A stretch of DNA of 22,156 nt from a virus. Below the pieces are notes generated by a model that was not told the DNA's origin, made no database searches, and worked only from the letters and a program-made list of their open reading frames with translations. The stretch's first letter is position 1, and each line of letters begins with the position of its first letter. Position numbers and translations under genes: made by a program. Shown one piece after another: positions 2,965 to 22,156 of this stretch. The stretch is taken from IMG/VR virus record IMGVR_UViG_3300025282_000281, positions 1 through 22,156 of that record; one strand, written 5' to 3'.

Positions 2965-3609
2965 CTATGCCGCTATCTGCGTCCAATTAGGAGTTTGAGA
3001 AGTATCAATGGCACTCCATACCAAAGTCGTTGCTATAGATCCTGTGGCCGAAACTCCGGTTACAACAACGGTTTTCGGTAAGACTACTGATCCTATGCTC
3101 CCCGCTAAAGCTGTCGGGGCCGTTACAATAAGATTGAGATCTCCTTGTACCGTTGCTGTTCCCACTGAACTGGCTGCGGTTACAGCTGTCGGTATAACAA
3201 TGGTTGCGGTTACAGCTGTCGCCGTTCCAGCTGAACTTGCTAACGCGGAAGGAGCGCTCGGAGTTACAACGGCTCCTGTTGAAACGGTAACTGAGGCGGC
3301 TGTACTGGCTAATGCAGAAGGAGCCGTTGCAGTAACTATTATCCCTCCCAGTACCGTTATCGTTCCTAGTGAACTCGCCAGAGCAGAGGGCGCGGTAGGA
3401 GTGACCGTCATATCTGTGGCGACGGTAACTGTTCCTGCCGAACTCGCCAGAGCAGAGGGCGCGGTCGGAGTGACCGTCATCCCCGTGGAGATCGTAACTG
3501 AAGCAGCCGTACTGGATAGCGCAGAAGGCGCTGTAATCAGAACCGGCGCTTCTTCTCCCCAAGTTCCGCTGCCCCATGTTTCTCGTCCCCAACCAGTAAG
3601 TTCAGCCAC
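2965..3609 (-). CDS. Repeat-rich structural protein (about eight 23-residue units)
   Basis: This 214-residue protein starts with a Trp/Gly-rich segment (GWGRETWGSGTWGE). Seven to eight degenerate copies of a roughly 23-residue unit follow, with consensus near VTPTAPSALASSAGTVTV. The C-terminal tail ends SQTPNWTQIAA. I recall similar N- and C-terminal caps in small tail or capsid-associated proteins of environmental phages. The repeats predict a beta-rich, elongated structure. The start is GTG at 3609, with an AGG about nine bases upstream; no ATG lies near it. It lies ten bases after the upstream structural gene and nine bases before the fibre gene. A fibre or virion-surface decoration role is inferred; no catalytic motif is visible. 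Confidence 0.7.
   Translation of the reverse strand: MAELTGWGRETWGSGTWGEEAPVLITAPSALSSTAASVTISTGMTVTPTAPSALASSAGTVTVATDMTVTPTAPSALASSLGTITVLGGIIVTATAPSALASTAASVTVSTGAVVTPSAPSALASSAGTATAVTATIVIPTAVTAASSVGTATVQGDLNLIVTAPTALAGSIGSVVLPKTVVVTGVSATGSIATTLVWSAIDTSQTPNWTQIAA
3371..3480 (-). repeat. Near-identical 69-bp tandem units
   Basis: Two 41-base blocks at 3371-3411 and 3440-3480 differ at one base and are offset by exactly 69 bases, or 23 codons. They are the best-conserved DNA copies of the protein repeat array in the surrounding gene. The other units of the array have diverged more, so this pair probably arose by a late duplication or slippage event. Confidence 0.85.
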
Positions 3610-11020: not shown

Positions 11021-11455
11021 TTAAATATGCAGGATATCTTCAGGGTCCTGTATGACGGCTATGACTTCGTCGTCGTTCAATATGCGTACCTCGCCACCGT
11101 CAATCCTAAAACGAGCGCCAGCATATCTTCCAAAAATGATCCAATCCTTTTCCTTGCACCAGGGGCCGTTGGGAAATTTTTCCTCGTCCTTATACGCCAA
11201 AGGTCCGGTGCGTAAAACATAACCACACACCGTGGCTACCGCTTCACGATCTACCACGGTATCCGGCAAGAATATCCCAGCTTCTGTTTTTCCTTTTCCA
11301 CGATACGGCAGGATCAACAAGCGCCACCCCGTAGGCTTGGGAAGTCGCTCCAATGAGGAATCCTCTATTTTGTCGGGATCAAGGATCTTCTCCTCGACGG
11401 CTATATAAGCATCCTTTAAAGATACGACCGTGTCGTCTTGTGTTGCTTCAGGCAT
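11021..11455 (-). CDS. GroES-like co-chaperonin
   Basis: After a 38-residue extension not found in bacterial GroES, residues 40-135 follow the Cpn10 pattern: KPTGWRLLILP, a mobile-loop region with GKTEAGIFLPD (residues 55-65), then GYVLRTGPLAYKDEEKFPNG and GPWCKEKDWIIF, GRYAGARFRIDGGEVRILND and DEVIAVI. The mobile loop would bind host GroEL, with IFL in place of the usual IVL triplet. No groEL gene is in view, so it probably replaces or competes with host GroES, as T4 gp31 does, to fold capsid protein. It lies directly upstream of scaffold and capsid genes. GAGGA precedes the ATG. The family call is strong; the substrate is inferred. Confidence 0.85.
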   Translation of the reverse strand: MPEATQDDTVVSLKDAYIAVEEKILDPDKIEDSSLERLPKPTGWRLLILPYRGKGKTEAGIFLPDTVVDREAVATVCGYVLRTGPLAYKDEEKFPNGPWCKEKDWIIFGRYAGARFRIDGGEVRILNDDEVIAVIQDPEDILHI

Positions 11456-12760: not shown

Positions 12761-15184
12761 CTACTGCTGTCTCTGTTTCATCAACTCACGTTCGCGAGCC
12801 GCGTTAATGCGGGCGTCTGCGATATCTTCTGCCGATTGTATGCGTTTCTCGCCAAGATCTGCATTAATGGCGGCTTTCTGCTCTTCCAGCTGCAACCGCT
12901 CCTTGTCCATAGCGGATTCGTTGGCATCCCGTCGTGCCCTAATTTCCAGATCCTTCTCTTTCAAGGCAATCAACGGATCTTGTGAAGTCTCTCCACTTAT
13001 CTGATTACTCAATGCTTTTAGCTCCTGCATACCTTCTGCAATTAATTGCGCGACCTGGGATTCAATCTGCATCATTTCTTCCGGCGTAGGCTCGCGGCCA
13101 CCAAGCTGTGGCGACAATTCAGTATAAACCTGCTCCTTCGCCTTCAACGAAACGTGATCCATCACGTGCTTTTGCAACGCCATCGTTACGCCGGGTAACT
13201 GACCCACCATGGAAGAGGAACCGAACACCATATGAGCCATGATGTGCGCGTTATGGTTTTGCCCCTCAAAGGCCATAAGAGGCAGATTTTCCAGGGATTC
13301 CGAATTCTCTAACGCCGGATCTTTAGGCTTTGGATCACCCTGGTCCACAGGCTTGAGAATGTTGTCCACGTCCGGGACGCCAATCGCTTTATACATGCGA
13401 CGGTATGCTTCATACATGTTGTGAAGATCCGGCGCAGATTGCGCCAGCTGAAGCTCCGTTTGAGCCAGTGTGATACGCTGCGACATTGAGAAGATATTCG
13501 GGTCCGAAACCGGGATAATATCGACACGATCATCAAAGTCCTTTGCTTTAACGGTGCGTTCTGCACCTACCACGTTATAAGGATATTCGGGCGGAAGAGA
13601 CTCCCCAAACACCCGCGCCAGCAGCATGAACTCCTCTTTCTGGGCATAATGCAACCGTTTGTGAATAGCGGACATGACTTTCGCGCCCTGTTCCAAAAGC
13701 GCAATCGTCGTTCCCACCGCCGCCTGTTGGTTGCCGTCACCAACCTGAATATCGGAAACGGCTGCAAACCGCCGTCCCGCATCGACACAAAAACCCATCA
13801 ACTGGAACAACGTCTGATCCGCCCCTTTGTAAGGCAGCAGCATCAATGAATCGCGAATAGCGCCACCCGGTGCGTCGATGTCCCTGAATTCGCCGGGAGC
13901 CAGCGGTTCGTCGTCGTTCCGGATGCGTAGACCTCTGGCCTTGAACCCGGCGGGAAGGTTTGAAAGCGTACCGGCGTCGATTAACTGGCGAAGTGCCGCC
14001 GTCGCCGTGCGGCTCAAACCGCCAATCATGTGAATCAGTCCCAGGCCATAGAAGCCAAACCCCGGCAGGAATTTAAAGTGGGCAAAATACTGGATCTTGG
14101 TCTTTTTGGGATCGTCGGGGTTCCAGTTGCGACGAATGCTTAAAACCGTACTATTGTCCTCCGACACGGTAACGATATAAGGCAGCTTAATTCCCGTAGG
14201 CTCTTCGGCCTCGTCGCGGTCTTCATAGCCTTCGATATCCAGATTGACGTGGCACTCCAGCAAAGTCGCGTCCCTATCTAAAAAGGTCGGCTCAATGCCG
14301 CTGATGTCGTCCATCTCGTCCCGTACCTGGGACTGGTCTTTCTGGTGAGGCGTCACCGGAACGTCTTTATAGAAACCAGCCACCTGCTTCTTGCGTAATT
14401 CGTTCTCCGACAACTGAATAACGTGCGTCACGTTTTCAGCCGTCTCCAAATCCGTCGCCGTGTACGGAACGATCAACTCTTCCGCCGGAACGAACTTGCT
14501 GACTGCCCGTCCCAGGAATTCGTCGTAATAGACCTTCTTGAAGGTAGATCCGGACAGCGGCAGATAAAACAACATCTGGTCAACTTCCGGCGTGTATTCC
14601 GTCATCACGCAGGTAAGCTGATAGTTCATGTAATGACGCACCCGTTCCGCCTGATCTTCGACAGCCGGGTCTATCTTACCCATAATCTTGGTGTGAACAG
14701 GCCCCCCTGCGGGAAGCATCTCCCCGAAAGCCTGGGCCTGAAACTGCGTCACCGCTTCGGCCAAAAGCGGATGCGTTACGCCGGTTGCTCCCCGAAACGG
14801 TTCAACCCGGTCTTCATACTTGAAGCCAAGAAGCTCCAATCCGATAGTGTAGGCTTCCTCCCAATCCTTGCGTCCGCTCTTGTTGCTTTCGTATTCGTCC
14901 ATCAGCGTCGAAGAAATGGCCGACAAAACCCTGTCGTCCACCGTTTCGGCCAGATTCTCGTAAAAGCCCTCCTCGCCAACGACCGCGCTGGGATCGAAGT
15001 CGATCACCACGCCGCCGTCTTCCTCCAGTTCGATATTGAGGTCCGGAGTTTGGATGAGGCTCCTGTCTTGCACCTCGACTTCGGCCCCGTCCTCTATTTC
15101 CAATTCAACCGGAGGAATGGCGTCCCTGCGTTCAATTAACGCAGCTGCGCCAAGATTGCTTCTGGGAAGACCGGTCTCAGCCAT
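12761..15184 (-). CDS. Portal protein
   Basis: This is an 807-residue protein with the hallmarks of large P22/podovirus-type portals: an acidic N-terminal region of roughly 100 residues, the helical SGRKDWEEAYTIGLELLGF, then FRGATGVTHPLLAEAVTQF, QAQAFGEMLPAGGPV, and FYLPLSGSTFKKVYYDE. A long helix-rich tail follows, with a charged coiled coil over about the last 85 residues, probably the barrel. It would form the twelve-subunit ring through which DNA is packaged and ejected. The preferred start is the ATG at 15184 (AGGA ten bases upstream), two bases after the stop of the previous gene; a TTG at 15190 is possible. Position downstream of terminase supports the call. Confidence 0.85.
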   Translation of the reverse strand: MAETGLPRSNLGAAALIERRDAIPPVELEIEDGAEVEVQDRSLIQTPDLNIELEEDGGVVIDFDPSAVVGEEGFYENLAETVDDRVLSAISSTLMDEYESNKSGRKDWEEAYTIGLELLGFKYEDRVEPFRGATGVTHPLLAEAVTQFQAQAFGEMLPAGGPVHTKIMGKIDPAVEDQAERVRHYMNYQLTCVMTEYTPEVDQMLFYLPLSGSTFKKVYYDEFLGRAVSKFVPAEELIVPYTATDLETAENVTHVIQLSENELRKKQVAGFYKDVPVTPHQKDQSQVRDEMDDISGIEPTFLDRDATLLECHVNLDIEGYEDRDEAEEPTGIKLPYIVTVSEDNSTVLSIRRNWNPDDPKKTKIQYFAHFKFLPGFGFYGLGLIHMIGGLSRTATAALRQLIDAGTLSNLPAGFKARGLRIRNDDEPLAPGEFRDIDAPGGAIRDSLMLLPYKGADQTLFQLMGFCVDAGRRFAAVSDIQVGDGNQQAAVGTTIALLEQGAKVMSAIHKRLHYAQKEEFMLLARVFGESLPPEYPYNVVGAERTVKAKDFDDRVDIIPVSDPNIFSMSQRITLAQTELQLAQSAPDLHNMYEAYRRMYKAIGVPDVDNILKPVDQGDPKPKDPALENSESLENLPLMAFEGQNHNAHIMAHMVFGSSSMVGQLPGVTMALQKHVMDHVSLKAKEQVYTELSPQLGGREPTPEEMMQIESQVAQLIAEGMQELKALSNQISGETSQDPLIALKEKDLEIRARRDANESAMDKERLQLEEQKAAINADLGEKRIQSAEDIADARINAARERELMKQRQQ

Positions 15185-15186
15185 TA

Positions 15187-17034
15187 TCAAAATATCCTAC
15201 GCTGCATCGACGGAGACAGGGTTGCTTCTCTCAAACGACGAACCCCGCTGCTTGGGCCGTGGTGAACGGGTCCTCCACCTTGATAATTCCGTTCGTCCTC
15301 CCGGCGCTTGGCAAGTTCGTACATGGTTTCACCTTCCTCGCGCACGGATCGCGAACCACGGGGCATGATTTCTCCCGCTTGCGTCCCGCGTCCAATGTAA
15401 CCACCCTGGTCATAACCGTGCAGACGCTTGAACCGTTCGTACATGGATTCACCGGCTTCGCGAACAGGAAGCGAGCCTCGCGGTGCAAGCTCCCCGGCCA
15501 TCGTTCCACGGCCCACGTGACCACCCCGTTGCATTTGCGGAGGAAAAACGTCTCCTTTGATACGCTCACCGGGCGTAAAGGCGGGGTCCTCAACTCCTAA
15601 AAAACCAGGCACCGTAGAAACCGTTTCTTCCATGATCCTTTCGCTAGGCAAAAGGGACCCTTGCGGAGAAGGTGGAGGAACTGCTGGCGCACCAAACTGT
15701 ATAAGAGTTGACCGGACGATATCAAATCGGGGGTCATTTATCTGAGCAAGATACTCCAAATCCCCACGATGCGTTTGAACGAAACCCACTATATCTTCCG
15801 TACTGCCGTGCCGCTGCACATCTACGAGACTTGCTACAATACCTGGGGCCTCCATAGGAATTCCTTGATCAGCCATTGCCGGTCCTCCATCTTGATACTG
15901 CTTAACTACGGGGCCACCTTGATTAATACCCTGGTACTTACGAATTGGCCTACCGCTATAGGGGTCATCTTCAAAAAGAACCCCACCAGGAGTATATGAT
16001 GGGTCCACATCTCGTTTTAGCTGATCTAAAAGGGACTTCAAAATCATGGTATTCCGGCTTTTATTTTCAAAGATGTCCAATCTTCTTTCATCGTCCCACG
16101 ATTTTATGTCGCGCTCTAAATCTCTGTGGCGTTCCTCATATCCAGGGTCCAGAGGAATCTCAGGACCCAGAAGTGGTCCCAGAGACTCACCAAAATCCCA
16201 AGAACCAACCGGTGGTTTAACTTCCATACCAGCCCTTTGTAACAAAGGATTACCAACGTCAGTTCCCGCTTGTAGAAGAGTGTCTTGGGGTCTTGCTTGT
16301 GCCTCTATATCCATACTAGGTGTATGCGCCGGTAATTGAGGCCGATACGCTGCTCCATAACCAACGTTGACCGGCATAATCGGAGTGTTCGTCGTAGCCC
16401 TGTTGTCTCGCAGTCGTTGAATTGCCTGTGATACGGGTCGTCCGATATACCCTCCTTCTCCTTCAGTGGCTCTGATATTAGAGGGTACGTCTCGTTCACG
16501 CATTTCTTGTGGAGCCTGATCATACGGAGATTCATATCCCGGTGGCGCTCGCAACGGAGTCTGAAGTATGTTCTCCCTAAAAGGCTGGTAGTCGGGCCTG
16601 CCTAAGTTAGGTGGTCCCGTATATCCTGGACCTTGCGTTGGTAAAGGTCCTTCTTGAGCAGTCCATTCTGGAAGAAGACCCCTTCCTTCCGCCTTCTTAT
16701 AAAGGTCGTAAAGAGACCCAATACCAGAAAGTACTTTAGGAGCAACAAGGCTGGTTCCCATGGTAAAGGGTGCAGCCAAAAGAGAGGCCCATCCGGGAAG
16801 AGAAACCGGTTTAACTGCATCCCAGGCACCACTAATAAGACTACCCAGCCCACCCCAAAAACCGCCGCCGGGACCTTCCCGCGAAACATCGACAGAAGGG
16901 GGGATGCCACCTTGAGGTGCGTATGAAGTAGGGTCTTCGGTTATAATGTCTTCTTCAAATTCACGTCCCCATCCGCCACCACCACCATAATCGCCAGCGC
17001 CACCATATGTACCAGCTACACCTTCCCCAATCAT
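15187..17034 (-). CDS. Gly/Pro-rich putative internal virion protein with C-terminal repeats
   Basis: I do not recognise a family. The 615-residue product starts with a Gly-rich segment. Residues about 58-115 are a Gly/Ala/Leu-rich, partly amphipathic stretch (WGGLGSLISGAWDAVK, LPGWASLLAAPFTMG) like the membrane-active parts of ejection proteins. A disordered Pro-rich middle follows, with helical DLERDIKSWDDERRLDIFE. The C-terminus has two 40-residue units, GGHVGRGTMAGELAPRGS and GGYIGRGTQAGEIMPRGS, each ending MYE. GGPV and GGYIGR motifs recur elsewhere in it. The ATG at 17034 overlaps the TGA of the basic 49-residue gene (TGATG), with AAGGA upstream. Position next to the portal suggests an internal or ejected virion protein; that is inference. 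Confidence 0.5.
   Translation of the reverse strand: MIGEGVAGTYGGAGDYGGGGGWGREFEEDIITEDPTSYAPQGGIPPSVDVSREGPGGGFWGGLGSLISGAWDAVKPVSLPGWASLLAAPFTMGTSLVAPKVLSGIGSLYDLYKKAEGRGLLPEWTAQEGPLPTQGPGYTGPPNLGRPDYQPFRENILQTPLRAPPGYESPYDQAPQEMRERDVPSNIRATEGEGGYIGRPVSQAIQRLRDNRATTNTPIMPVNVGYGAAYRPQLPAHTPSMDIEAQARPQDTLLQAGTDVGNPLLQRAGMEVKPPVGSWDFGESLGPLLGPEIPLDPGYEERHRDLERDIKSWDDERRLDIFENKSRNTMILKSLLDQLKRDVDPSYTPGGVLFEDDPYSGRPIRKYQGINQGGPVVKQYQDGGPAMADQGIPMEAPGIVASLVDVQRHGSTEDIVGFVQTHRGDLEYLAQINDPRFDIVRSTLIQFGAPAVPPPSPQGSLLPSERIMEETVSTVPGFLGVEDPAFTPGERIKGDVFPPQMQRGGHVGRGTMAGELAPRGSLPVREAGESMYERFKRLHGYDQGGYIGRGTQAGEIMPRGSRSVREEGETMYELAKRREDERNYQGGGPVHHGPSSGVRRLREATLSPSMQRRIF
15317..15560 (-). repeat. 120-bp tandem duplication encoding two 40-residue units
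   Basis: The sequences around 15318 and 15438 share CGTACATGG and neighbouring blocks at an offset of 120 bases. At the protein level the units contain GGYIGRGTQAGEIMPRGS and GGHVGRGTMAGELAPRGS, followed by VREEGETMYE and VREAGESMYE. Synonymous differences between the copies show that the protein motif is better conserved than the DNA, which suggests selection on the unit. Confidence 0.75.
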
Positions 17035-17183
17035 CACGATTTCCTTCGCTTCTTCGGCCTACTCTTGAAGTAGTTGACCTGCTTCTCCCGCTTCACCGCT
17101 TGCGCTCTGGTCGAGTACGTACCCAGATTCTTGCCGCTCTTTGAAACGAGCCGATGTCCACCGGAAACTTTACGAATGGTCAT
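17034..17183 (-). CDS. Very small basic protein, 49 residues
   Basis: An ATG at 17183 opens a 49-residue frame that ends in TGA at 17034, overlapping the next start codon. The product begins MTIRKVSGGHRLVSKSGKNL, continues GTYSTRAQAVKREKQVNYF and ends in a run of Arg and Lys. I recall short phage proteins with the pattern RKV-GGY-L-SK-GK-LG-T-T--A-KRE, which have no known function but are widespread. The coupling and the recognisable pattern make it likely real despite the lack of a clear Shine-Dalgarno. The basic tail may bind DNA. It fills the space between the lysine-rich 65-residue gene and the 615-residue gene. Confidence 0.6.
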   Translation of the reverse strand: MTIRKVSGGHRLVSKSGKNLGTYSTRAQAVKREKQVNYFKSRPKKRRKS

Positions 17184-17404: not shown

Positions 17405-17773
17405 CTAATAGCTGACTTCGTTAGAGGGTGATGAATTCATTATAAGACCAACTCCACTCCCGACCACACACCCTTGTTTATCCCCGGAAGTGTGAAGAAT
17501 CAACGTCCAATCTTCGTTTTCCTCGTCAACCCAGACTTCATAAATGTCCTGCTGGTTCTTGCCGATAGCCGACAGCATCAACCTTTCGCCCCCCCACTTC
17601 AAACTTTTCTGCAAATTCTCGTAATTGGTGCAGGGGCTTCGGTGCTGGTAAATGCCGGTGGGAACCAGGGGAATGTAAAGCGGAGAACCGGCAGCTTCAG
17701 GTTCGACCTTGGTCGCGCAACCACTGCATAAGGCTATTGCCAAAGTCGCCACCGGGAGGGTCAACGCCATCAT
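17405..17773 (-). CDS. Small exported/lipoprotein-like phage protein, 122 residues
   Basis: The N-terminus MMALTLPVATLAIALCSGC looks like a signal peptide, with a possible lipidation Cys at 19; CSGC is not an ideal lipobox. The mature part contains two further Cys residues (SPCTNYENL, KQGCVVGSG) that could form a disulfide, a helical NLQKSLKWGGERL, and DIYEVWVDEENEDWTLILHT near the end, a pattern I recall from a small phage protein family with a WT-hydrophobic strand and one conserved Cys. The start is one base after the polyvalent gene stop. Localisation in the envelope is likely; function is unknown. Confidence 0.55.
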   Translation of the reverse strand: MMALTLPVATLAIALCSGCATKVEPEAAGSPLYIPLVPTGIYQHRSPCTNYENLQKSLKWGGERLMLSAIGKNQQDIYEVWVDEENEDWTLILHTSGDKQGCVVGSGVGLIMNSSPSNEVSY

Positions 17774-17774
17774 C

Positions 17775-20700
17775 TCACGCCCCCATAACTAGCGATTGAA
17801 CAGGATTTTTCATAAAATGTCCAATGCCTTGGAAAACGGGCTTTTCGACAGAACCGCCTTGGGCATAACCCGGTATTTGTATCATCTCATCGACGTATGA
17901 TTCCAGAACCTTGGTGCGGTCTAAAACCTCCTGGTCCCAGACAACGTAATTACGAGATCCTTTCTGACCGGGCCGACTAAATTGATCGAAATACTTGAGG
18001 CCGGGAATCCCTATTGCCTCTAAATCTGTCGCTACTTCTATTTTAGGCTTAACCCCTTCCAAAAAGGTTTGAACCTGCTTTCCGGTTAAATCCTCATATT
18101 TTAATCCCCGCGTCTCTGCCTCCGTTCTAAGAAATGAAGACAAACGCTGTGAATCTGTACTTGGACGTTTTTCCAAAGCCTTCATAAGTCCAGGTTGTTC
18201 ACTCAGCGGCATATCCCAGTCTAACATCCTGGCGGCGTCCGCATCCGGAACATCAAGTTTATATAAAGCGCCTTTGTCTACACGTCCTACTTTCAAATCA
18301 AGTCTATAAGCCATGTTTTCCAGAGCCGCCATGTGAGACTGGGGGTTACGGGGAAAATTAAACCATTGCACTACCTTTGCCGGTAGCTCTTCCCCATAAG
18401 CTCTTTTCCACGCTTCCTTAAACGGCACTTCTTTTCCAGCTTCCATTATTCCATATCGCTCAATGTCACTTAGTCTATTTTTATACATTCTTGCAACATC
18501 CGGAATTTCAGCTGCATAAAACCCGTGTCCAAATGCGCCATGGCCTTCACCCGTACCTATGAAGGCTTTACTTGGTCTTCCTTTCGGAAAACCCTTTTCC
18601 GCCAGCCATCGGGTCGGCCCACCATGAAAAACAGTTACGCCAGCCCCTAGCATGTTCATCCCCAGAAGCTCATGAGTTATGCCCTCTGTATAAACCTTCA
18701 TAGCATCTCTAATACGGCCTTGATCCATAAGGGCGTCAGAGGCTTCTCTTTCTCTATCTAGCTGCTCTCGAATCTCAGGAGGATACCTAAACAAGTCCAC
18801 CACAGGTAGTTTGGCCTCTAGACCGACAAGCGGGTCCATGGGATCGCCAACCCAACCGCCTTCTGCAAACTCTGGAAGCGTGACGATGCCGCCGGAAGCC
18901 TTACCGGGATCGTATTTAAATTCCCGCAACGCCCTCATATTGCCAGAATCCAATACGGAGAAAGGCACGTCGCTATATAAAGTGTTGGTTTTGGCGTCCT
19001 CCACGTCAAACGTCATGCCTTCGACACTTTCATCCCCGGCAGCGTCCCACAAGCCGTTTGCGATTTCTCGCAATTTCTTAGACGTTATGTCGTAAGCTTC
19101 CACGTTGTTTCCGGCAACGCGAACATAGCCAAGATGCCTTATTCCGTATTCTCTGGGATGAGAACCAGGATGACCCGAAGCTATGTGTAACTCTTCCTCG
19201 TTGATCCCCAACTTTTTTAATAAGGCTTCTTTTGCTTCAGGCTCGTCTTTGGTCAGCTCGTTACCGTAGGCATCTATTTCTGTCGTTTCCAACTCACGCA
19301 TTTTTCTCAAAATAAACCGACCAACGTCATATGTTAGAATTTCTCTTCCCTCCGGGCTTTCGGTCAGTTCATCATATTCATCCCCAATAGTCTCCGCTTT
19401 ATCGGCCCAGTCTTTCCAATCGACATCGAAATTAGCGTCTATAGCATCGACCAACTTACGTACTACATGTTCCCGGACGATCATGTCGTGGTTGAAATCG
19501 CCAACGTCGCCATCAGCAAATTGCGCTTCTCCTTCGACCAGGAACCACTCGCCCGGTACTTCTTTAAAGGTAGGCTTGAAATCCTTGGTTATGCCCATGA
19601 TTTCGTCGTATTCCCTCCGCGCCTGACGCGCCTCATCAGCTACGCTGCTCGGTGCATTAACCAATCTTTGTGCCGCTTCCGGCAATGTTCCAATGCCTTC
19701 TTCGGGCGGTGGAGAAAGGTCCGGTAAAGGTATGGCCTCTGCCGCTTCCGGCAACGTTCCGATGCCTTCTTCGGGCGTCGGCGTCATTAGTTCCTTGAAG
19801 TATTCCAGTCCCGACTTGTCCAGCCCAAACAATTCATGCGTCTTGGTTTCCTTTAGCCAATCCACCGCGTCCCCAATATTCTGTTTGTATTCGTCTGGAA
19901 TGTAGGGCCACGCTTGCTGGACGGCGGTTATGATAGGAAACATTCTTCGACTGATCTGCTTTAATCCACCGATACCACGCCACATCGGGCCTTTGCCCGT
20001 GGGCCGTGGTTCTTCGCCCGGTTCCCGTAATTGAGAAGCGGCGGAGGCTGCACCCAGTAGGGCGGGTAAATGATGCGGACGACGACGAGGAAACAATTCG
20101 AGAGGGGGTTCAGGGAGTTGTTGAATATTTTCTTTATCTAATACCAAATAGCTTATAGAGCCTGGATCTTCCACGCTGTTCTCGTAAATAATACCGTCAA
20201 AGCCTTTCTTTTTAAATTCTTCAAATGCTCCTGGCATATTTAACAGCATGAACAAATCATGTTCAGATATAGGATTTTCTTCCGTCCCATAAGGATTGTT
20301 AAGGGTTATTTCAAAAGGAATTATTTTTTCTCCCCCTGGCTTCCCTCCTTTCATGCGCGAATAAGTCCCTTCTCTTAGACGATTCTCTGCTGCTTGCGCC
20401 GTTCCAAAATGAAATCCTCCGAAACCTGTTTTCTCAGGAAGACCCTCCTCTCTAGTACCGTGATAGACTTTTCTAACAAGGGGCCGTGGTTCGTCAGCCG
20501 TCTCCGTGGGCCGTGGTTCCTGAAATATGGAGGCCGCATGTTGAAAACCTGTAGGATCTTCAGCTATCTTATCAAGCGCCCTTAATAACTCAGCAGCTTT
20601 CTTAAACTGCCTTTCACCTACAGCAACAGCCGCATCACGGGCTAATTTCTGGGGTCGATTAAATACTGGGATTTTTCTATGCTCATCTGCATATTTCTTC

Positions 20701-21557
20701 ATAAGCTGATGATAACGCTCTCTTATCGTATCAACCGATTCTGATACCCCCTTTGTTTCCCGATTGTAGTGAGCCAGCCCTTCGTGATTTTGTTCTATAA
20801 ATGCTTCAAGATTAGGATTCTCTAGGGTTTGAACCTTACCCGCTATCTTGCTCCTGACTCTTTCGCGCCTAAAGGAACCCCATTCAGCTTCATTAGTTAA
20901 GACGTGTGTTAGGTCTCCTATATGTTCAAGAACGTTATCTAATTCAACAGCAACGCGCGAACCCAACACATCAAGCATAGCTGTTTCTGGGGCACCACGT
21001 TGAGTACTGCTTACAGTCTTAAATGCTTTGAGGGCCTCTGGAGATAGCTGCGTTGGTTCTCCTTTCGATCCAACCCAATGACCTCTCGTGGGCCGTGATT
21101 CATAAAATTGCCTCAAACGCTCTACGGATAAGGGACCCTCAACATCTTCAGCCCCTCTCAAATACCGTAATTCTACGGGTATGGTATCGCGCCCCGACTT
21201 CACCGCCTCTACAACTCTGTGGTTGCCTTCTATAATAAAGGGCTGACCGTCTTCCCTGACAAATACAAGAATAGGGGATGGCTTGTACCCTTCTTCTTGT
21301 ATGCTTTCTTCAATAAGGTTTAATTTTTCACCGCTCTCCCTGTAATCCTCCTCGCCCAATGCACCCGGAATGTCCTTGAGTAAATCAGGAGAGAGGTCCA
21401 AATCTTCACGGAAATATCCCGTAATGTTAGCGGCTCCAACCTTTCTTGTAGAAGTATCTGAAGGAGCCGTCTGATAGTCTTTTTGAGCTTGCTTCAGCTT
21501 ACTCTGGAGCCAATCCCCACCGGGGTTGTCTATATAAAGTTTAGGCAGTTCAGCCAT
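17775..21557 (-). CDS. Polyvalent protein: ParB-like domain plus two ADP-ribosyltransferase-like domains
   Basis: This 1260-residue protein has a ParB/sulfiredoxin-like domain at about residues 75-135 (SPILVFV, then IIEGNHRVVEA at 108-118). A first ART-like domain lies near 360-480: VYHGT at 364, GFHFGT, FEITLNNP and GFDGIIYEN. A second, clearer ART-PolyVal-like domain lies at about 974-1210: VFHGG at 976, GTGEGHGAFGHGFYAAEIPD (1001-1020), LYKLDVPD, LDWDMPLSEQ, NYVVWD. Between them is a conserved-looking region at 660-880 (FLVEGEAQFADGDVGDFNHD) I cannot assign. The ATG at 21557 overlaps the terminase stop by eight bases and has GGAG upstream. Polyvalent proteins are thought to be delivered with phage DNA and to modify host targets. 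Catalysis is inferred, not shown. Confidence 0.75.
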   Translation of the reverse strand: MAELPKLYIDNPGGDWLQSKLKQAQKDYQTAPSDTSTRKVGAANITGYFREDLDLSPDLLKDIPGALGEEDYRESGEKLNLIEESIQEEGYKPSPILVFVREDGQPFIIEGNHRVVEAVKSGRDTIPVELRYLRGAEDVEGPLSVERLRQFYESRPTRGHWVGSKGEPTQLSPEALKAFKTVSSTQRGAPETAMLDVLGSRVAVELDNVLEHIGDLTHVLTNEAEWGSFRRERVRSKIAGKVQTLENPNLEAFIEQNHEGLAHYNRETKGVSESVDTIRERYHQLMKKYADEHRKIPVFNRPQKLARDAAVAVGERQFKKAAELLRALDKIAEDPTGFQHAASIFQEPRPTETADEPRPLVRKVYHGTREEGLPEKTGFGGFHFGTAQAAENRLREGTYSRMKGGKPGGEKIIPFEITLNNPYGTEENPISEHDLFMLLNMPGAFEEFKKKGFDGIIYENSVEDPGSISYLVLDKENIQQLPEPPLELFPRRRPHHLPALLGAASAASQLREPGEEPRPTGKGPMWRGIGGLKQISRRMFPIITAVQQAWPYIPDEYKQNIGDAVDWLKETKTHELFGLDKSGLEYFKELMTPTPEEGIGTLPEAAEAIPLPDLSPPPEEGIGTLPEAAQRLVNAPSSVADEARQARREYDEIMGITKDFKPTFKEVPGEWFLVEGEAQFADGDVGDFNHDMIVREHVVRKLVDAIDANFDVDWKDWADKAETIGDEYDELTESPEGREILTYDVGRFILRKMRELETTEIDAYGNELTKDEPEAKEALLKKLGINEEELHIASGHPGSHPREYGIRHLGYVRVAGNNVEAYDITSKKLREIANGLWDAAGDESVEGMTFDVEDAKTNTLYSDVPFSVLDSGNMRALREFKYDPGKASGGIVTLPEFAEGGWVGDPMDPLVGLEAKLPVVDLFRYPPEIREQLDREREASDALMDQGRIRDAMKVYTEGITHELLGMNMLGAGVTVFHGGPTRWLAEKGFPKGRPSKAFIGTGEGHGAFGHGFYAAEIPDVARMYKNRLSDIERYGIMEAGKEVPFKEAWKRAYGEELPAKVVQWFNFPRNPQSHMAALENMAYRLDLKVGRVDKGALYKLDVPDADAARMLDWDMPLSEQPGLMKALEKRPSTDSQRLSSFLRTEAETRGLKYEDLTGKQVQTFLEGVKPKIEVATDLEAIGIPGLKYFDQFSRPGQKGSRNYVVWDQEVLDRTKVLESYVDEMIQIPGYAQGGSVEKPVFQGIGHFMKNPVQSLVMGA
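19672..19776 (-). repeat. 69-bp duplicated linker in the polyvalent gene
   Basis: The plus-strand blocks starting GCCGCTTCCGGCAA at 19672 and 19741 are offset by exactly 69 bases. They encode two copies of PEEGIGTLPEAA (around residues 595-606 and 618-629), separated by Pro-rich sequence. This looks like an expanded interdomain linker. Confidence 0.8.
19999..21101 (-). repeat. Dispersed 14-base linker word encoding E-P/S-R-P-T
   Basis: GTGGGCCGTGGTTC occurs on the plus strand at 19999-20012 and 20506-20519; a one-base variant (GTGGGCCGTGATTC) is at 21088-21101, and a shorter GGGGCCGTGGTTC at 20480-20492. All are read in the same frame and give EPRPT, EPRPL or ESRPT. They fall just after the ParB-like domain, before the first ART-like domain, and after it. 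Confidence 0.75.
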
Positions 21558-22156
21558 AGTAGCTCCGGAGATATGTTGACGGCTCCTCCTCGCGCCAGTC
21601 GTCGCTCGGCAACTGGACGAAGTTGCCCTGGCGGTAGCGCATCAAAGCCTGTGTCGTGCTGTCAACCAAATCGTCGTACTCGCCAAAGGGGAATGCCGCG
21701 CACTCCTCTATCACTTCGTCGGCCCACCTGTCGTCCGGTGCCCAAATCATCCCGCTTTCAAACAGCGGCGAGACGGAATGCACCCGCGTAATCTTATCGT
21801 TTCCTTTGCTCGGAGTAAAGTTTACCACAGGTATTCCCAACTGCCGCAGTTCCTGCGTCAGCGGCATCCCGGACGCCTTGGCTTCGATTATGACCGTCTC
21901 CGGTTCCCAAAACTTGTATTGCTCCAGCGCCTTCTCCTTCAATTCCGGGAAATCCCACCGGCCCTTCTTCGAGTCCAAAAGAATTAAATTAGCCGGTCCC
22001 TCCTCCTTGGGATAGAAAACCCCCCAGGTGGTAATCGCGGAGTAGTCGGCTGTCTCCTGCTTGGAGAATGCCGTGTCGTAACTCTGAATGACGTACTCCA
22101 GTTGCGGCACTTCCTCCTCCTTCCACCGCTTCCACCACTCCTTCTTTATGATCGCC
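21550..22156 (-). CDS. terL: Terminase large subunit, C-terminal nuclease domain (5' end outside window)
   Basis: The frame is open to the right edge, so the N-terminal ATPase is missing; about 201 residues remain. They begin AIIKKEWWKRW and contain the RNase H-like nuclease: IQSYDTAFSK (first catalytic Asp, fragment residue 27), TVIIEAKASG (Glu at residue 91), and EYDDLVDSTTQAL (Asp cluster at 161-165). The nuclease cuts concatemeric DNA during packaging, at the portal. A GTG at 22110 is internal, not the start. The stop overlaps the start of the polyvalent gene by eight bases, so that protein may be made together with the packaging motor. Confidence 0.9.
   Translation of the reverse strand, partial: AIIKKEWWKRWKEEEVPQLEYVIQSYDTAFSKQETADYSAITTWGVFYPKEEGPANLILLDSKKGRWDFPELKEKALEQYKFWEPETVIIEAKASGMPLTQELRQLGIPVVNFTPSKGNDKITRVHSVSPLFESGMIWAPDDRWADEVIEECAAFPFGEYDDLVDSTTQALMRYRQGNFVQLPSDDWREEEPSTYLRSYYG

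Follow-up and report, generated by a model that had tools for sequence, protein, structure and literature searches.

A polyvalent-type protein with ParB-like and ADP-ribosyltransferase-superfamily modules in the hypervariable terminase–portal slot of phages

The window, a stretch of viral DNA of 22,156 nt, carries a gene (P0001; 17775..21557) for a multidomain, polyvalent-type protein of 1260 amino acids, situated between the genes for terminase and portal. In related phages, this terminase–portal slot is hypervariable, the modules of the P0001 protein are reshuffled within it, and the proteins encoded there have a C-terminal tag in common; these three observations are new here. Such reshuffled modules behind a common tag suggest cargo that is loaded into the virion and delivered on infection. 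In HTVC023P-type phages, the large cargo gene of this slot is probably what P0001 represents, its polyvalent product probably being loaded into the head and ejected with the DNA. All features described below lie on the minus strand.

The ORF listing, the translation and the junction sequence present P0001 as a single intact open reading frame, the ATG of which overlaps the stop codon of a C-terminal fragment of the terminase large subunit gene (21550..22155; PF17289, E 2e-10; PHROG 38, E 6e-33). This fragment forms the upstream edge of the slot, and a gene for an SU10-type portal protein (12761..15190; PF23899, E 3e-12; PHROG 1216, E 2e-57) the downstream edge. The terminase–portal location that an earlier note on this DNA had claimed for P0001 thus holds. 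P0001 does not adjoin the portal gene: two further slot genes intervene, one specifying a lipoprotein-like protein of 122 amino acids with an LCSGC lipobox in its sequence (17405..17773; PHROG matches weak only), the other a GG-repeat protein of 616 amino acids directly upstream of the portal (15187..17037), recognised from its sequence and from the C-terminal parts of relatives at loci L007, L014 and L223. The source phage is marine.

No domain was recognised directly when the whole P0001 protein was scanned with Pfam and NCBIfam, so the domain identities given here derive from relatives. Given that blindness, the earlier note, which had read the domains from motifs only, made a good reading: its motifs are all located in the protein (EGNHR at residue 110, VYHGT at 364, FHFGT at 382, VFHGG at 976, GHGFYAAE at 1010 and NYVVWD at 1203), and two ADP-ribosyltransferase (ART)-superfamily domains and a ParB-like domain do occur on one chain within the packaging block. 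The domains are not chance resemblances: the module profiles match P0001 with E-values of 6e-53 (ParB), 1e-34 (first ART, hereafter ART1), 2e-100 (C-terminal ART) and 5e-60 (residues 663–879). As every profile includes the query, these scores contain some circularity; independent evidence comes from the relatives encoded at viral loci, which number 61, 11, more than 500 and 31, respectively. Among the traits of phage polyvalent proteins are 2–15 distinct effector domains per polypeptide and a location with the late or virion genes in terminase–portal phages. P0001 has that location and combines a ParB-like domain, the MID module, ART1, an uncharacterised domain and the C-terminal ART, each of which also occurs in separate contexts. 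A portal-fusion, MuF or peptidase domain was not found in P0001, which we count against the cargo reading.

The ParB-like domain (residues 5–147; 21117..21545) matches PHROG ParB families (E 5e-4), and E-G-N-x-R, the arginine-bearing active-site motif of the ParB/Srx superfamily, is invariant in all 33 members compared. Pfam ParB_N yields weak matches in four of these 33 (best E 0.0039); as the domain stays below the gathering score (13.5 vs. 26.3 bits), we label it ParB-like only. It is followed by the helical MID module (residues 170–347; 20517..21050), which by tblastn and profile matches is shared with gp47 of Salicola phage SCTP-2 and with L002, L020 and L281. LINK (residues 504–603; 19749..20048) is a recurrent segment between domains, found at 25 viral loci and always in the terminase–portal slot where both markers are visible.

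ART1 (residues 355–480; 20118..20495) is homologous to ART-PolyVal (hhalign probability 99.7, E 1e-26; two of the reference rows have above-cut-off PF18760 matches) and aligns with the ART-PolyVal (PF18760)/N4-ART clade over its whole length in profile comparison. No Pfam match in P0001 reaches the PF18760 gathering score for ART1, and we therefore describe it as a divergent relative, not as a formal member of the family. The H-Y-D active site is absent from it: His366 and Asp454 are conserved, whereas His383 occupies the position aligned with the tyrosine, as a histidine does in 10 of 11 ART1 relatives according to residue counts. Because the usual catalytic tyrosine is replaced, enzymatic activity of ART1 is uncertain, as judged from its sequence, and this too counts against the cargo reading.

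The C-terminal ART (residues 950–1232; 17862..18710) resembles the ART-PolyVal/N4-ART (H-Y-D) clade in its HG[TSG] and G-x-Y strands, and none of its 62 relatives (alignment A4) departs from His978, Tyr1014 and Asp1191, Asp1191 being presumably the third residue of the triad. It differs from ART-PolyVal by large insertions, with the match at sequence level confined to the first ~50 residues; it does not pass the PF18760 gathering score (no match in P0001; the relative L088 attains 30.0 vs. 31.2). An ART fold for residues 960–1215, proposed from motifs, is supported by the AlphaFold model, the core of which has a pLDDT of about 90. VIA-align relates the model with Z 6–10 to a phage ejectosome chain and ART enzymes. 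The best solved match is chain 9k3a_B, an ART-like fold within the cyanophage A4 pre-ejectosome, a solved virion ejection complex (Z 10.0; 4.6 Å over 156 residues; 17% identity); the likeness is structural only, no sequence match to 9k3a being found, and the other rows are ART-fold enzymes (Z 6–8.5). In BFVD, fold matches are to ART-PolyVal-like proteins (E 2e-12 and 7e-12). Foldseek against PDB gave nothing usable for the 621-residue model carrying this domain, because half of the model is of low confidence; VIA-align worked on the same model. Of 80 loci of the C-terminal ART family, 51 have genes for terminase, portal, scaffold or capsid within the fetched stretch, and in several (L092, L106, L112, L133 and L144) the ART gene is flanked by those for terminase and portal. 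A search for plasmid carriers returned weak matches only.

The region at residues 660–880, previously set apart as a large unassigned stretch, is more than that: residues 663–879 (18921..19571; AlphaFold pLDDT 80.5) correspond to a single conserved domain family, which also occurs by itself. Judging by sequence conservation across the 31 viral loci, the family is real and phage-wide, and its ADGDVGD..H motif is invariant; the counterpart in L223 is 48% identical. Neither sequence searches, nor Foldseek with the AlphaFold model of region 645–900, nor VIA-align (best Z 4.3) found a relative in PDB, a null result that does not prove a new fold, and tblastn of the region in phages gave a chance match only. 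The domain is likely of an enzymatic type.

The slot itself varies far more than its borders. Where terminase is 83–92% and portal 72–78% identical, the interval between them is hypervariable, and in 43 relatives with terminase 72–91% identical it measures from −17 to 5356 bp and differs in gene content, which includes LPD23, ART-PolyVal, DUF6884 and, in phage DSL-LC04, PcfJ. The ParB, LINK, uncharacterised and C-terminal ART modules change their order among relatives: ParB-LINK-ART (L189), ParB-LINK-ARTC (L235), ART-LINK-ParB (L191) and unknown-LINK-ParB-LINK-ART (L223), while MID recurs in another combination, ParB-LINK-MID (L281). The slot content is dispensable, since the terminase gene directly abuts the portal gene in L033, L038, L039 and L042, and also in phage CRP-901. 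This dispensability, together with the H-Y-D residues invariant in the C-terminal ART, makes it very improbable that P0001 is mainly structural (ejection- or portal-associated) with ART-like and ParB-like folds that are inactive scaffolds, even though 9k3a is an ejectosome protein and the ART1 relatives mostly carry histidine for tyrosine.

The P0001 protein carries near its end GGSVEKPVF (residues 1234–1242; 17832..17858), a divergent copy of the tag GGFVDKPLY. All 28 matches to this GG-x-V-x-K-P-L-Y type of tag, with some contigs repeated among them, are C-terminal and in slot proteins, where shuffling predicts 0.33; the search space was 2.3 million residues, and none was found outside the slot. 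The P0001 copy deviates, reading KPVF and standing 18 residues before the stop, as against 1–9 elsewhere, and the gene that separates P0001 from the portal gene does not end in the related GGIMSL tag, unlike in relatives; we count both against the cargo reading. Tag and linker could also be kept at the level of DNA, as recombination junctions or for coupling to the start of the next gene, rather than as a protein address: the tags lie at gene ends beside the next start codon, and module order is shuffled at them. We think this unlikely, as synonymous codons replace one another where the residues of the tag are invariant (TCN vs. AGT serine in GGIMSL among them) and as tags are also present on proteins whose next gene differs. 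A ribosome-binding site as the sole cause of the tag is rejected because of the same codon variation. Within the protein reading, what looks like an address might instead be a conserved terminus belonging to a single chassis, because most of the tag-bearing proteins have other modules in common.

Paired GG motifs, GGIVTLPEFAEGGWV (residues 889–903; 18849..18893), separate the uncharacterised domain from the C-terminal ART, and GG contexts recur across slot proteins. GG-x is an assembly-protease site in some eukaryotic viruses; a protease that could cut there was considered for the slot and none was found. As a signature of the slot, GG dipeptides alone were rejected, being weakly enriched (11.0 vs. 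8.7 per 1000 residues in slot and control proteins); specificity resides in the extended motifs only.

The combination of domains is no previously undescribed effector arrangement, as had been supposed: multi-ART and ParB polyvalent proteins are already published, and close relatives combine ParB and ART in several orders. According to the survey by Iyer et al. (2017; PMC5512222), phage polyvalent proteins have up to 12 ARTs per chain as well as ParB domains; like P0001, they join at least two unrelated effector domains, including ART and ParB, shuffle their modules and lie beside packaging or virion genes. P0001 differs in that no metallopeptidase was found, and its group adds a recurrent linker and a common C-terminal tag with variable effectors, an organisation that the accessible text of the survey does not describe. 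Either ART1 or the C-terminal ART has homologues in the large polyvalent protein of Planktothrix phage Pag-Yong1, in gp225 of Tunturiibacter phage Tunturi_5, which adjoins the portal gene, and in Sulfitobacter phage phiGT1_5, in a head gene cluster; these have other domain partners, and no ParB, LINK or tag was found alongside.

The position of P0001 fits a virion-delivered effector, because surveys place polyvalent and ART proteins beside terminase and portal genes (PMC5512222; PMC9503650) and because of the match to the pre-ejectosome chain. Alternatively, P0001 might act late inside the infected cell, unpackaged, in host modification, exclusion of other phages or counter-defence, its position reflecting late expression only. 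That packaging of P0001 is something we infer leaves room for such a role, and PMC9503650 raises the idea that ARTs encoded close to packaging genes counteract immunity that targets the packaging machinery; we nevertheless hold it to be rather improbable, given that distant phages repeatedly place such genes in the terminase–portal interval, that the C-terminal ART structurally matches a virion ejection-complex chain and that packaged precedents exist. The Dar proteins of P1 (DarA, Hdf, DdrB) are packaged in the head and ejected with the DNA against host defence, and P0001 is likened to them by description, as is its ParB-like domain to DdrB, described as a ParB-domain polyvalent protein. T4 Alt is likewise a head-packaged, injected ART, unlike P0001 in its R-S-E-type active site, its different ART clade and its single effector.

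As head-loaded cargo, the P0001 protein, its modules joined by LINK and closed by the short tag, would be made late, at the same time as the head proteins, and enter the head close to the portal, the C-terminal tag and/or the linker serving as address. After its ejection along with the DNA, a host target would be ADP-ribosylated early in infection, at least by the C-terminal ART. To our knowledge, the sorting of effectors into podovirus-type heads is poorly known beyond T4, P1, N4 and jumbo phages. Tentatively, the whole slot could be a modular loading platform, in which the tags (GG-x-V-D-K-P-L-Y and the related GG-I-M-S-L and GG-V-x-S-L-x-D-x-A-x-N-M) and the repeated linker send any interchangeable effector into the head or portal region for packaging and injection. 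If this is true, a tag on the interchangeable cargo of abundant marine phages would make the question of sorting directly testable and the cargo predictable from sequence alone. The slot also brings together a range of candidate enzymes for counter-defence, a widespread uncharacterised domain among them.

The gene for the 1260-aa multidomain protein P0001 (17775-21557, minus strand; ORF listing and translation) occupies the hypervariable slot between the terminase and SU10-type portal genes, its ATG overlapping the terminase stop. Every motif that the earlier note had listed is present in P0001 at the position given there. Two genes separate it from the portal gene: a 122-aa lipoprotein-like protein of the packaging block with a lipobox in its sequence (LCSGC; 17405-17773, minus strand), which shows weak PHROG similarity to an Rz-like spanin (E 0.07), and a 616-aa GG-motif-rich protein (15187-17037, minus strand) built of imperfect tandem repeats of ~40 aa, each with a GG motif (QRGGHVGRGT..., DQGGYIGRGT...). 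A 324-aa relative of the latter, ending in GGGIMSLRR, occurs in the related locus L223.

The virus record, 22,156 bases long, is a fragment whose head and tail genes lie on the minus strand, and its GC content is 48.9%. The portal's nearest sequenced-phage relatives are in Pelagibacter phages HTVC027P and HTVC023P, phage 023Pt_psg01 and phage DSL-LC04 (50-53% identity), followed by Roseobacter phages CRP-901/902 (41-42%), and on sequence grounds we assign the phage to the HTVC023P-type group. Genome assemblies of Verrucomicrobiota, Rhodobacteraceae, Pelagibacteraceae and SAR86 contain portal relatives. A 144-aa gene (11021-11455) sits where HTVC027P, HTVC023P and DSL-LC04 have an annotated co-chaperonin GroES. 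Near the tail genes, 2965-3609 encodes a protein of degenerate repeats (TAPSALASxxxxxTVxT); the other strand has an open frame of 213 aa there.

Among 43 relatives in which both markers are present (terminase 72-91%, portal 59-78% identical), slot length ranges from -17 to 5356 bp and gene content varies; CRP-901 has no gene separating terminase from portal, and no full-length relative of the whole of P0001 was found in these slots. Cargo in other members includes LPD23, ART-PolyVal, PcfJ and DUF6884, the last recurring in slot genes of L040, L063, L067 and L074 (E 1e-7 to 1e-11), where most of the proteins concerned bear the GGVVxLKDKAVNM-type tag. Close relatives found by scanning with the ParB-like domain (terminase 83-91%, portal 72-77% identical) carry shuffled modules in their slot genes: ParB-LINK-ARTPolyVal (L189), ParB-LINK (L190), ARTPolyVal-LINK-ParB (L191), LINK-ParB (L222), unknown-LINK-ParB-LINK-ARTC (L223), ParB-LINK-ARTC (L235, L236), ParB-LINK-MID (L281), LINK-ARTPolyVal-LINK (L286) and LINK-ARTC (L282, L284). 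P0001 has the fullest combination seen, ParB-MID-ART1-LINK-unknown-ARTC.

The ParB-like domain (residues 5-147; PHROG ParB families, E 5e-4; weak Pfam ParB_N match) has relatives in 61 viral loci and keeps E-G-N-x-R in 33/33 sequences. MID (170-347), a module whose sequence suggests that it is helical, is shared with SCTP-2 gp47, L002, L020 and L281. ART1 (355-480) matches ART-PolyVal rows in profile comparison (probability 99.7, E 1e-26). Its homologues include Tunturi_5 gp225, which adjoins its phage's portal gene and matches PF18760 at 5e-32 across the stretch homologous to ART1, and a gene that carries the annotation "large polyvalent protein". His366 and Asp454 are invariant in ART1, and histidine occupies the tyrosine position in 10/11 sequences.

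The recurrent LINK module (504-603) was found in 25 loci, always in the slot where both markers are visible. The domain at 663-879 (the "unknown" module), present in 31 viral loci, lies either inside proteins of 2000-3300 aa, among them some above 3000 aa, or alone in ORFs of about 230-390 aa. Small solo ORFs (L253:4986-5624; L258:4971-5639; L254:4980-5600) occur in large contigs of phages, up to 479 kb in length. Its predicted model is confident (pLDDT 80.5, pTM 0.73), and sequence and structure searches of the PDB found no relatives. Since ADGDVGD..H is invariant across the family, a metal or catalytic site is suggested, and we name this domain as a target for structure determination and assay. 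A direct repeat, PEEGIGTLPEAA in two copies, lies at the junction of LINK with this domain (residues 597-630; window 19668-19769). Two slot genes may have fused at these residues to give P0001.

The C-terminal ART (950-1232) belongs to a family in >500 viral contigs, with H978, Y1014 and D1191 kept in 62/62 sequences. In the predicted model, the best structural match of the ART region is 9k3a_B ("Cyanophage A4 pre-ejectosome"; Z 10.0), followed by enzymes of ART fold (Z 6-8.5); viral predicted structures named ART-PolyVal-like also match (E 2e-12 and 7e-12). Terminase, portal, scaffold or capsid genes lie nearby in 51/80 loci with this family, some in the exact order terminase-ART-portal. Published surveys report the same placement: ARTs are often neighbours of terminase and portal genes, and some 44% of phage ARTs have contexts suggestive of head packaging (PMC9503650). 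The archaeal Methanosarcina virus MetMV carries the family within a 3006-aa protein (L085:793-9810).

In the window's subgroup, slot proteins close with the tag GG-[FLM]-V-D-K-P-L-Y-x-x-x-R-M-[IV]-G. A search of 2.33 million residues (all six-frame ORFs of all loci) with the pattern GG.[VIL].[KR][PS][LVIM][YFW], composed after examples had been seen, gave 28 matches vs 0.33 by shuffling; the independent cases are fewer, as some contigs are near-duplicates or copies of the same contig. All 28 lie in the slot, <=18 residues from a stop; most tag-bearing proteins (three body clusters) also have other modules in common. The P0001 copy, GGSVEKPVF, 18 residues before the stop, is the most divergent. 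Synonymous codons vary at invariant tag positions, which argues for selection on the protein. In L190 (4917-9022) the KPLY tag ends three consecutive slot genes (437, 122 and 779 aa), as if it marked separate cargo items. A second tag, GG[VI]VxLxDxAxNM, closes the portal-adjacent gene in outer HTVC023P-type relatives (29 ORFs at E <0.05, all upstream of the portal) on bodies of differing domains; a third, GG[IL]MSLRR-stop, terminates that gene in the window's subgroup. Several relatives (L222:746-1390, L223:1634-2389, L236:1742-2641, L015:3-539) have a first slot gene with another ending, GGLASLPQIS[HQ]SGLYR[AV]MGRG-stop.

Most likely, P0001 would be made late as a multi-effector cargo protein, loaded into the head and ejected together with the DNA. 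Packaging in the head followed by ejection is established for T4 Alt and for the Dar proteins of P1. The C-terminal ART of P0001 would most likely modify a host target, and DNA may be the substrate on which its ParB-like domain acts; we hypothesise that tag and linker form the address for loading. PMC5512222 describes polyvalent proteins carrying a single ART or many, as well as ParB domains. P0001 adds a member to this polyvalent class. Its chassis, in which modules vary within one hypervariable slot around a recurrent linker and a common C-terminal tag, is a variant that is not described in the passages of the polyvalent-protein and ART literature consulted, nor was it found by a literature search on such slots.
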